Part shown: one piece after another, positions 40,697 through 43,473 of the stretch
How the letters are laid out: each line of letters begins with the position of its first letter
Position numbering within the stretch: position 1 is the stretch's first letter
Assembly: GCF_013294025.1 (NCBI RefSeq)
Contig: NZ_JABSNL010000011.1
Span: forward strand, 62,001 to 126,000
Direction: 5' to 3'
DNA: 64,000 bases
From: Flavobacterium aeripolare
GTDB taxonomy: Bacteria; Bacteroidota; Bacteroidia; Flavobacteriales; Flavobacteriaceae
The notes under the pieces: model-generated
Database searches by the model: none
Seen by the model: only the letters and a program-made list of their open reading frames with translations
What the model was told of the DNA's origin: nothing
Program-made: the position numbers and the translations under genes

Positions 40697-41692
40697 TTAT
40701 TTATTCAAAAGTATAGCTGCCTCTTTTGCAAAATAAGTCGAAATCAAACTTGCTCCTGCTCTCTTGATGCACATTAATTGCTCCATCATAATTTTATCGT
40801 GATCCAGCCAGCCTCTTTCGGCTGCCGCTTTGATCATAGCATATTCACCAGAAACATGATAAACCGTTACCGGAACATTTACTGCGTTTTTAACCTCGCG
40901 AACGATGTCTAAATAGGCAATTCCTGGTTTTACCATTACCATATCGGCACCTTCTTCCACATCCCAAAGTGCTTCTTTGATAGCTTCAATGCGGTTAGCA
41001 TAATCCATTTGATACGTTTTCTTGTCTTTTGGCACTTCGACATCAGCTTCCCTTGGCGCACTATCTAATGCATCGCGAAAAGGCCCGTAAAATGCCGAAG
41101 CGTACTTCGCTGAATAGCTCATGATCCCCACATTATGAAAACCTGCAGCATCAAGACCTTGGCGCAAACGCAATACGCGTCCGTCCATCATATCACTTGG
41201 TGCTACAAAATCGGCTCCTGCTTGTGCATGTGAAACTGCCATTTTCACTAAGGCTTCGTTTGTCAATTCATTATCTACATCACCGTTTGCAATGATTCCG
41301 TCATGACCGTAAATAGAATAGGGGTCTAATGCTACATCGGGCATCACGACCATCTCTGGGCAAGCAGTTTTAATAGCACGAATGGCGTCTTGCATCAATC
41401 CGTTTTCATTCCAAGCTTCTTTTCCTGTATTGTCTTTTAAATCTTCGCTGACCTTTACATAAATATTTACAGCGCGAATACCCAATTCATATAATTCTAT
41501 AACCTCTTTTACCGTTAAATCTATCGAACGACGAAAGATTCCTGGCATAGAAGCAATTTCTACTTGTACGTTTTCTCCCTCTGCAATAAACATGGGAAAC
41601 ATAAAATCTGACGGACTTAATGTCGTCTCACGAACTAATGAACGAATAGATTCACTTGTTCTTAATCTTCTACCTCTTTGTAATGGGAACAT
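40697..41692 (-). CDS. hemB: Delta-aminolevulinic acid dehydratase (porphobilinogen synthase)
   Basis: Condenses two 5-aminolevulinate molecules to porphobilinogen. Catalytic lysines K196 (SYSAKYAS) and K255 (MVMVKPGIAY), and the APSDMMDGRV segment. The active-site metal region reads DVALDPYSIYGHDG, with Asp and no Cys triad, so this is a Mg-dependent type rather than a zinc enzyme. 331 aa. Separated from hemF by the transposase/repeat insertion. Confidence 0.97.
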   Translation of the reverse strand: MFPLQRGRRLRTSESIRSLVRETTLSPSDFMFPMFIAEGENVQVEIASMPGIFRRSIDLTVKEVIELYELGIRAVNIYVKVSEDLKDNTGKEAWNENGLMQDAIRAIKTACPEMVVMPDVALDPYSIYGHDGIIANGDVDNELTNEALVKMAVSHAQAGADFVAPSDMMDGRVLRLRQGLDAAGFHNVGIMSYSAKYASAFYGPFRDALDSAPREADVEVPKDKKTYQMDYANRIEAIKEALWDVEEGADMVMVKPGIAYLDIVREVKNAVNVPVTVYHVSGEYAMIKAAAERGWLDHDKIMMEQLMCIKRAGASLISTYFAKEAAILLNK

Positions 41693-41707
41693 ATGTTTTA
41701 GCGTTTA

Positions 41708-41773
41708 GCTCCATGGGAGCGGTATAATTATAGAAATGTGTATCAATTTACAAAAACCAAACCCCAGAGGGGT
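41708..41773. repeat. REP-like palindromes on the 3' side of the transposase gene
   Basis: GCTCC-AT-GGGAGC (41708-41720) and ACCCC-AGA-GGGGT (41761-41773), similar in type to the palindromes on the other side of the transposase gene. Confidence 0.55.
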
Positions 41774-41784
41774 GGGATATTGTT

Positions 41785-42243
41785 TTAAACATCATCAAAG
41801 ATAAATTCATTTTTAAAATCTATATTGAATGCTTTTAAAAAATCAAGATATTCTTCTTTGAAGGTTTTCTTTTTATGATGCTCTTCTTGTTTTTGGATGT
41901 AATTTATAACATTAGTTAGTTGAGAATGGCTATACGAAAAAGCACCAAATCCCGTTTGCCATTCAAATTTACCATTAATCCATCTTTTCTCATTTATAAA
42001 ACGAGAGGAATTAGCTTTCATTGCTCTAACCAAATCAGACAATGATTTGTCAGGTTTTAATCCAATCAAAATATGAATATGGTCCGGCATTCCATTAATC
42101 GCGATTAATTTTTGACCTTCGTTAGTAACTATTCCCGTGATGTATTTATATAATTCATCCTTCCAAATTGTGGAAACTAGATTTTGCCTGCCTTTAACGG
42201 CAAAGACAATTTGAATATATAATTGCGTATAGGTATTTGCCAT
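41785..42243 (-). mobile_element. IS200/IS605-like HUH single-strand transposase (REP-associated type)
   Basis: A 152-aa Y1 transposase. HUH motif H55-I-H57 (MPDHIHIL), catalytic Tyr candidate Y115 with Q119 four residues later (NYIQKQEEHHKKKTF), as in TnpA enzymes that cut and join single-stranded DNA hairpins. No TnpB or accessory gene. Palindromic units lie on both sides, one regular array upstream (42272-42549). This suits a RAYT-type domesticated or slowly mobile enzyme rather than a classical IS; intact ORF, so probably active. Confidence 0.9.
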
Positions 42244-42271
42244 TTGAAATTGATATTATTTAAAATATGCC

Positions 42272-42547
42272 ATCCCTACGGGATTTAATAAAATCGGATT
42301 GAATATTGTCTATAAATATTTCATCCCTATGGGATTCAACAAAACCGCATTGAATATTGTCTATAAATATATCATCCCTATGGGATTCAATAAAAAACGC
42401 ATTGAATATTGTCTAAAAATATGTCGCTCCCATGGAGCTTTTACAGCCAATCCTTAGGATTTTCTTCGTCTACAAATATGTCATCTCTATGGGATTAAAT
42501 AAAAAACGCATTGAATACTGTCTACAAATATGTCGATCCCATGGAGC
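42272..42547. repeat. Array of six REP-like palindromic units (~51-57 bp period)
   Basis: Cores start at 42272, 42323, 42374, 42426, 42483 and 42536; type ATCCCTAyGGGAT (1, 2, 3, and 5 with one change) or GCTCCCATGGAGC (4, 6 similar). Spacers share GAATATTGTCTAtAAATAT and AATAAAAAACGCATT. No coding region. Unit 4 carries a copy of the hemF 3' end. Confidence 0.92.
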
Positions 42548-42549
42548 TT

Positions 42550-43473
42550 TTACAGCCAATCCTTAGGATTCTCTAATACTTGTATTAATTTTTCTTCCTC
42601 ACTGCCTTCTTCTGGATGATGGTCATACACCCATTGCACATGCGGTGGCAAACTCATCAAAATTGATTCAATTCTTCCATTGGTTCTCAAACCAAATAAT
42701 GTTCCTTTATCGTGAACCAAATTGAACTCCACATAACGACCACGACGAATTTCTTGCCATGTTTTTTGAGCTGGAGAATACTCCAAATCTTTTCTTTTTT
42801 CTACAATTGGAACATAAGCTTGCAAGAAACTATTCCCAACTTCAGACACAAAGCTGAACCAATCTTCCATCTTCATATCATCAGTTGCTTTGCAATAATC
42901 AAAGAACAATCCTCCAATTCCGCGCGCTTCATGACGATGGGCATTCCAGAAATAGGCATCACACTGTTTTTTATATTTTGGATAAAAATCTGGATTGTGT
43001 TTATCACAAGCCGTCTTACACGTTTCATGAAAATGTTTTGCATCTTCTTCGAATAAATAGTAAGGCGTTAAATCTTGTCCACCACCAAACCACTGCTGAA
43101 TCACTTTTCTTGGACCTGTACTGAGCTCTGTCGAAGTATCGTACATTTCAAAATAGCGCCAATTCGCGTGTACCGTAGGCACCATGGGGTTTCTTGGGTG
43201 CAAAACCAAGCTTAGTCCGCAAGCAAAAAAATCTGCTTCGCCAACATTAAATAGCTTTTGCATGCTCTCTGGCAATTTACCGTGAATAGCCGAGATATTG
43301 ACACCCCCTTTTTCAAAAACTTTTCCGTTCTCGATTACACGTGTGCGACCTCCTCCACCTTCTGGGCGATCCCAAAGATCTTCTTTGAATTTGGCTTGAC
43401 CATCAACAGTTTCTAGTCCTGCTACAATTTGGTCTTGTAAGTTTTGTATGTATGCGAAAAACTGCTCTTTCAT
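42550..43473 (-). CDS. hemF: Oxygen-dependent coproporphyrinogen III oxidase
   Basis: Oxidative decarboxylation of coproporphyrinogen III to protoporphyrinogen IX with O2. Family segments: FKEDLWDRPEGGGGRTRVIENG, HPRNPMVPTVHANWRYFE, WWFGGG-type motif QQWFGGGQDLTPYYLFEEDA, and RGIGGLFFDY. 307 aa. The aerobic enzyme fits an aerobe. The 3' end of the gene directly meets the repeat array. Upstream (13 bp) is an OmpA lipoprotein gene. Confidence 0.97.
   Translation of the reverse strand: MKEQFFAYIQNLQDQIVAGLETVDGQAKFKEDLWDRPEGGGGRTRVIENGKVFEKGGVNISAIHGKLPESMQKLFNVGEADFFACGLSLVLHPRNPMVPTVHANWRYFEMYDTSTELSTGPRKVIQQWFGGGQDLTPYYLFEEDAKHFHETCKTACDKHNPDFYPKYKKQCDAYFWNAHRHEARGIGGLFFDYCKATDDMKMEDWFSFVSEVGNSFLQAYVPIVEKRKDLEYSPAQKTWQEIRRGRYVEFNLVHDKGTLFGLRTNGRIESILMSLPPHVQWVYDHHPEEGSEEEKLIQVLENPKDWL

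Follow-up and report, generated by a model that had tools for sequence, protein, structure and literature searches.

Class-2 enzymes (RAYTs) are known to have REPtrons and REPINs, and the end hairpins of IS200/IS605 elements lie on one strand. Transposition of IS200/IS605 is strand-specific, and in both this family and TnpA-REP the cut site is chosen by sequences 5' of the hairpin (PMC8266576). In the survey of TnpA-Y1 enzymes by Quentin et al. 2018 (PMC6006769), Table 1 gives YxxNP as the class-2 tyrosine motif and lists IS200/IS605 subclass 1.1 at a mean of 4.8 copies per genome, with 99% identity. Subclass 1.2 is characterized there by the motifs DH[IV]H, WQ and Y---Q--HH, a median length of 148 aa and low genomic copy number, and its hosts are mainly Cyanobacteria and Bacteroidetes. 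Typical IS200 terminal structures are described in the survey as generally absent from subclass 1.2, and the entry for REPs in Table 1 is 'no'. The automatic REP search of the survey accepted only stems of at least 7 together with GT[AG]G, and a unit that has a 5-bp stem and no GTAG would escape it. Repeats with GTAG and CGTC tags are described in PMC3733652.

Here we analyze a tnpA gene and its flanking palindromes in the window, that is, the whole 64-kb stretch of DNA under study (Table 1). An initial annotation had placed a Y1 transposase with HIH and Tyr115 between hemB and hemF, and this was borne out. Y1_Tnp is the one Pfam match of the protein (2e-26), HIH corresponds to residues 55–57 and the tyrosine to residue 115, and both are invariant in 41 aligned relatives. 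The IS200/IS605 NCBIfam model scored 69.3, above its cut-off of 55. A class-2 RAYT identity was ruled out: NCBIfam REP_Tyr_transpos (NF047646) gave 35.3 bits against a cut-off of 80. The protein has YIQKQ at the tyrosine, so the YxxNP motif of class-2 RAYTs is absent. For the AlphaFold model (pLDDT 89.8), the closest solved folds were ISDra2 and IS608 TnpA (Z 13.0 and 12.9; best match rmsd 2.3, 108 aligned), with TnpA-REP 4er8 below them (Z 10.9, rmsd 3.7, 127 aligned).

All three subclass 1.2 motifs are present in the protein, as PDHIH, EWQ and YIQKQEEHH, and its length (152 aa) and copy number (1; it is the only Y1 transposase of its genome) also fit that subclass. Using our own patterns, we found the three motifs together in 104/110 relatives. 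Counted singly, the HuH-like motif occurred at 110/110 loci, W[QT] at 108/110 and Y---Q--HH at 106/110, the exceptions to the last being L020 and L023, where Arg replaces the first His, and L007 and L125, which have stop codons. Judged by sequence, tnpA is consistent with subclass 1.2, within the IS200-like class, sharing its motifs, its size of ~150 aa, its low copy number and its occurrence in Bacteroidetes. The best plasmid relatives of the protein, on two plasmids, were 58.7% and 38.7% identical; a search of phages for relatives covering 80% returned none.

Table 1. Features of the tnpA locus, in window coordinates; scores are those of covariance model R1
Feature	Position	Strand	R1 score	Remarks
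hemB	40697-41692	(-)		tnpA neighbour
Outermost downstream unit, GCTCC type	41706..41735	(+)	34.2 bits	13 bp before hemB start codon region
Inner downstream hairpin, ACCCC type	41759..41788	(+)	17.0 bits, E 0.2	degenerate tail; overlaps tnpA stop codon
tnpA, Y1 HUH transposase, 152 aa	41785..42243	(-)		motifs PDHIH, FEWQ, YIQKQEEHH; subclass 1.2 signature
Unit 6, inner upstream hairpin	42257..42286	(-)	18.7 bits, E 0.082	degenerate tail; just before tnpA start
Unit 5, ATCCC type	42308..42337	(-)	37.9 bits	
Unit 4, ATCCC type	42359..42388	(-)	37.4 bits	
Unit 3, GCTCC type	42411..42440	(-)	36.0 bits	
Copy of hemF 3' end inside array	42440..42467	(-)		part of 109-bp tandem duplication 42359-42467 / 42468-42576
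Unit 2	42468..42497	(-)	26.7 bits, E 0.0013	stem decayed
Unit 1, outermost upstream	42520..42549	(-)	25.5 bits, E 0.0024 in window	stem decayed; abuts hemF stop codon
hemF	42550-43473	(-)		tnpA neighbour

Eight units surround tnpA, six upstream and two downstream, and the tail faces the gene in 6/6 and 2/2 of them. The six units first noted on one side at a period of 51–57 bp were confirmed, with spacings of 51, 51, 52, 57 and 52 bp, and TRF reported a 51-bp repeat in 5.4 copies and a 109-bp repeat in 2 copies at the array. Palindromes of one type had been described on both sides. Hairpins do occur on both, but ATCCCTAYGGGAT is confined to the upstream side (three exact copies and one decayed), and the rest have GCTCC or ACCCC stems: the remaining two upstream units and the downstream hairpin at 41708 are of the GCTCC type, and the downstream hairpin at 41761 is of the ACCCC type. 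The 64-kb window contains seven perfect 5-bp/3-nt hairpins whose stems have 3 or more GC, and six of the seven fall in 41700–42560. The two units nearest hemF (42468 and 42520) have mismatched stems and do not fold as 5-bp hairpins. Unit 6 and the inner downstream hairpin are weak by R1 alone, and were placed from the hairpin together with spacings of 51 and 53 bp, respectively.

The unit amounts to more than a palindrome, with a 5-bp stem and a 3-nt loop, 3 nt, and then ATATTTATAG. The consensus is RCYCC-RKM-GGRGY-GAM-ATRTTTATAG, or 5'-CTATAAAYAT-NNN-hairpin on the opposite strand. The foot is CTATAAAYAT, 3 nt off the stem; the GT[AG]G foot of class-2 REPs is absent, and the unit contains neither GTAG nor CGTC, unlike the tagged repeats described in PMC3733652. 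Stem partners vary together (GCTCC/GGAGC, ATCCC/GGGAT, GCCAC/GTGGC and others). Because the stem differs between species while the tail is constant, an exact search for ATCCCTAYGGGAT finds the window locus only. Although only the tail was used to orient the units, the loop is asymmetric, with a purine first and A or C last, as would be expected if one strand is recognised.

To quantify hairpins around tnpA, we counted those with a stem of at least 5, at least 3 GC and a loop of 2–5. Density was 7.30/kb within 350 bp of tnpA versus 0.80/kb at 1050–1400 bp, a ∼nine-fold difference; a single set of dinucleotide-shuffled sequences gave 0.67/kb. All 101 usable relative loci had at least one hairpin inside 350 bp, 97 had at least two, and 75 had hairpins on both sides of tnpA; when a stem of at least 6 was required, hairpins were found in 65/101. 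The 100% stem pairing in alignment A1 is not counted as evidence, its 80 rows having been preselected for perfect stems, and a test based on the tail alone stands in for the A1 pair counts. In that test, 89 of 117 exact ATATTTATAG near tnpA were accompanied, always at the same offset, by a perfect 5-bp stem, and 0 perfect stems were seen at offsets shifted by 1–4 either way. Far from tnpA, a perfect stem accompanied 1/9 exact ATATTTATAG.

In total, 394 units were counted over 106 tnpA loci (controls: shuffled 12, reversed 23), with 279 facing tnpA and 115 facing away. Of the 216 spacings shorter than 160 bp between units in the same orientation, 145 measured 48–53 bp. Nineteen of the 106 loci had no unit of the CTATAAAYAT type; other hairpins are present there. 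The same 3-nt offset was found at 28/29 close loci and, with a close variant of the tail, at 7/8 loci of Poribacteria, 1/1 of Opitutales and 1/1 of Anaerolineales, and more rarely elsewhere (1/5 Saprospiraceae/Chitinophagales and 3/7 Cytophagales loci). The relatives are flanked by REP-like units, a difference from the 'no' given for subclass 1.2 in the survey table, an entry that describes the subclass but does not define it.

The position of the gene is also conserved. In 23 distinct loci that have full-length copies of the two genes, tnpA follows hemF. Distances for tnpA and hemF were correlated over these loci (Mantel r 0.62; 0/2000 permutations as high), and median dN/dS was 0.081 for tnpA and 0.055 for hemF, with 159/253 pairs unsaturated. 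By these sequence comparisons, tnpA is evidently under purifying selection and vertically inherited. In 11/12 of the closest pairs listed, dS was lower for tnpA than for hemF (e.g. 0.139 versus 0.647), so some gene exchange between lineages is likely. In-frame stops interrupt 3/23 hem-linked tnpA genes (L007, L008 and L065), which are otherwise conserved; tnpA of L125 is likewise broken. Fifteen hem loci with tnpA hold 71 units, a count that is discounted in part because some of these units trained R1. The R1 search detected 0 units in 15 hemF–hemB loci lacking tnpA, all of them outside R1 training, and the hemF–hemB spacer without tnpA measured 68–290 bp in 13 loci. Among the other 8 of the 23 tnpA-less hemF loci, units were seen in L060 only, one strong and one weak on the far (5') side of hemF. 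A minimal element with two hairpins on each side is found in L069 and L070, and the window shares this layout except that its upstream arm holds six. In L008, L009, L068, L069 and L070, the hemF frame seems to enter the outermost hairpin and to have its stop codon there.

How did the upstream arm come to hold six units? The initial annotation had credited the enzyme with growth of the array, a claim that the data do not establish. What we see are tandem duplications of the hemF end: the 109-bp duplication in the window takes in the last bases of hemF, and L008 and L081 have independent hemF-tail duplications of other lengths. The hemF-derived piece starts just after the unit tail, a possible site of enzyme cutting, in the window and L008 but not in L081, and with junctions split 2/3 to 1/3 they favour neither the enzyme nor slippage. 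That the units belong to the enzyme but slippage during replication, or unequal exchange between repeats, enlarged the array without it has, in our estimate, a little better than an even chance. Carriage of the hemF end within the 109-bp duplication, the independence and differing lengths of the L008 and L081 events, the L081 junction away from the unit tail, and short shared bases at the junctions (judged by eye) all point this way. The junctions just after the unit tail in the window and L008 argue for the enzyme, as does a long tandem array in L028 (850–1345), which consists of ∼26-bp units of hairpin plus tail with no spacer. Next to this array are a TnpA of 46% identity and further palindromes that differ in type. 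At L066 (3597–3621), a 25-nt tnpA-end remnant follows an inserted gene; it has hemF on one side and the intact tnpA on the other, and looks as it might after duplication of a whole element. The patterns in the window, L008, L081, L066 and L028 would all fit tandem duplication.

We then considered units away from tnpA. A scan of 100 genomes with R1 (E≤0.05) detected units in 31; per-genome counts are lower bounds, with 73 candidates scored per genome and stricter filters. Units were present in 24/38 genomes with a tnpA match versus 7/62 without (P 8e-8) and, within the genus, in 18/28 versus 6/33 (P 5e-4). No unit was found in 14/38 tnpA-bearing genomes. Whether the palindromes are equally dense without the transposase had been raised in advance; mostly they are not, as these counts and the 15 empty hemF–hemB loci show, but seven tnpA-less genomes do have units, including G004 with at least 19 and G017 with at least 10. 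These two may harbour orphan repeat populations. Sixteen of the 28 tnpA-bearing genomes of the genus, the window's own included, have at least 4–65 units each. The view that the units are tandem rather than scattered holds for the window's own genome, where all strong units are at the tnpA locus and the R1 matches outside it were three weak ones (E 0.23, 2.9 and 4.7, on C1 and C12), but not for the genus, where units are dispersed. A genome-wide check, as had been proposed, thus gave one Y1 gene in the own genome and dispersed units in related ones.

One genome, G015, was examined in detail. At E≤1 its 76 units form 28 clusters, and all but one of these, 27 in number, are away from the hem-locus tnpA. 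Of these 27, 17 run + then –, 2 run – then +, and 8 showed no inverted pair in the scan. The full four-hairpin order + + – – occurs in 6 G015 clusters, and neighbours in the same orientation are 49–54 bp apart in 30/35 cases. Both order and spacing match the tnpA loci, so the dispersed element resembles the tnpA element minus the gene; what G015 disperses is tnpA-less elements, not tnpA copies. Groups of units like those in G015 were found in stretches of six other genomes, and dispersed elements often lie near gene ends. At the site of one dispersed G015 element, compared over five genomes, units are present in G015, G057 and G049 and absent in G054 and G042; the right edge is unalignable, and neither a target-site duplication nor an exact end could be read there.

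We put the probability at roughly 0.7 that the locus is a REPtron-like unit, comprising a single-copy, vertically inherited TnpA-Y1 of subclass 1.2 and flanking cognate REP-like units, with a new REP type on the IS200-like branch. Observed directly are the unit, its tie to the enzyme family, its orientation to tnpA, the ∼51-bp pairing in the same orientation, the tnpA-less elements and the inheritance. Like class-2 RAYT/TnpA-REP systems, this one has a single-copy gene flanked by palindromes, along with dispersed inverted palindrome pairs that lack the gene. It differs from them in its class-1-type YxxxQ, the absence of a GTAG foot and the presence of two hairpins ∼51 bp apart per end. The palindromes of RAYTs both flank the gene and are dispersed in the host genome; here they flank the gene, and dispersal is seen in many relatives but not in the own genome. 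The suggestion of a RAYT-like pair in a flavobacterium therefore survives as a Y1 transposase with cognate REP-like units, but not as a class-2 RAYT (NF047646, 35 versus 80) and not with GTAG. What is new here is that subclass 1.2 has a REP-like partner, along with the tail of that partner and the element ends made up of two hairpins; in the open-access literature, we found no earlier description of these units or of a Flavobacterium RAYT/REPIN.

By analogy with IS200/IS605 and TnpA-REP, TnpA would bind single-stranded DNA at the hairpin and at the CTATAAAYAT foot 5' of it, and would cut nearby via Tyr115. It may then move or copy, in trans, short elements delimited by hairpin pairs in inverted orientation. 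In the own genome, the parent locus alone would be left, its upstream arm having probably gone from two to six hairpins by tandem duplication.

It is improbable that the locus is instead an ordinary or decaying IS200/IS605 insertion whose palindromes are the usual subterminal left- and right-end hairpins. The Pfam match, the NCBIfam IS200 score and the ISDra2/IS608-like fold, nearer than TnpA-REP 4er8, are what such an insertion predicts, as is a compact element with units at either end, and the likeness extends to HUH/Y chemistry (by homology) and to hairpin recognition elements with sequence 5' of the foot. Yet the end units are inverted (6/6 and 2/2), unlike the one-strand hairpins of IS200/IS605. 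Moreover, the genome has a single Y1 gene, in contrast to the multi-copy habit of subclass 1.1; at 23 distinct loci the gene sits in one and the same position next to hemF, and it is under purifying selection; and the elements dispersed in G015 lack tnpA. Selection of the hairpins for another job, such as forming transcript ends or regulating tnpA or hemF, with the enzyme incidental, is just as hard to credit: the outermost hairpin directly adjoins the stop codon of hemF, the start of tnpA comes right after the inner one and dispersed elements are often near gene ends, but the 15 hemF–hemB loci without tnpA have no unit, the tail keeps one fixed offset across phyla, and Rfam gave no family match at the locus at E≤1.

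The REPtron-like reading can be extended, tentatively and at slightly less than even odds, to the subclass as a whole. Subclass 1.2 may be a separate REP-mobilising lineage of the IS200-like branch, apart from the class-2 RAYTs, which recognises a 5'-CTATAAAYAT-NNN-5-bp hairpin across several phyla and spreads ∼160-bp elements with inverted hairpin pairs 51 bp apart; the tnpA locus, with its centrally placed gene, would be their parent. This subclass was published without a DNA partner or role, and the cognate unit, whose offset and tail are fixed across phyla, provides a candidate substrate obtainable as a synthetic oligonucleotide and open to testing. The locus also offers an example intermediate between IS200 transposons and domesticated RAYTs. 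With full, empty, expanded and decaying loci in one genus, the change from a transposase to a host-kept spreader of repeats can therefore be studied.

Palindromes of other kinds were also encountered. L230, the intergenic counterpart in G042 of the G015 four-hairpin site, has palindromes of the GGCTTTAGCC type, perhaps from another repeat family. At L030–L034, which encode distant relatives of the enzyme (37–40% identity), the flanking hairpins are longer and of other sequence (e.g. CCCACGG/CCGTGGG), suggesting that unit types may differ by enzyme clade.
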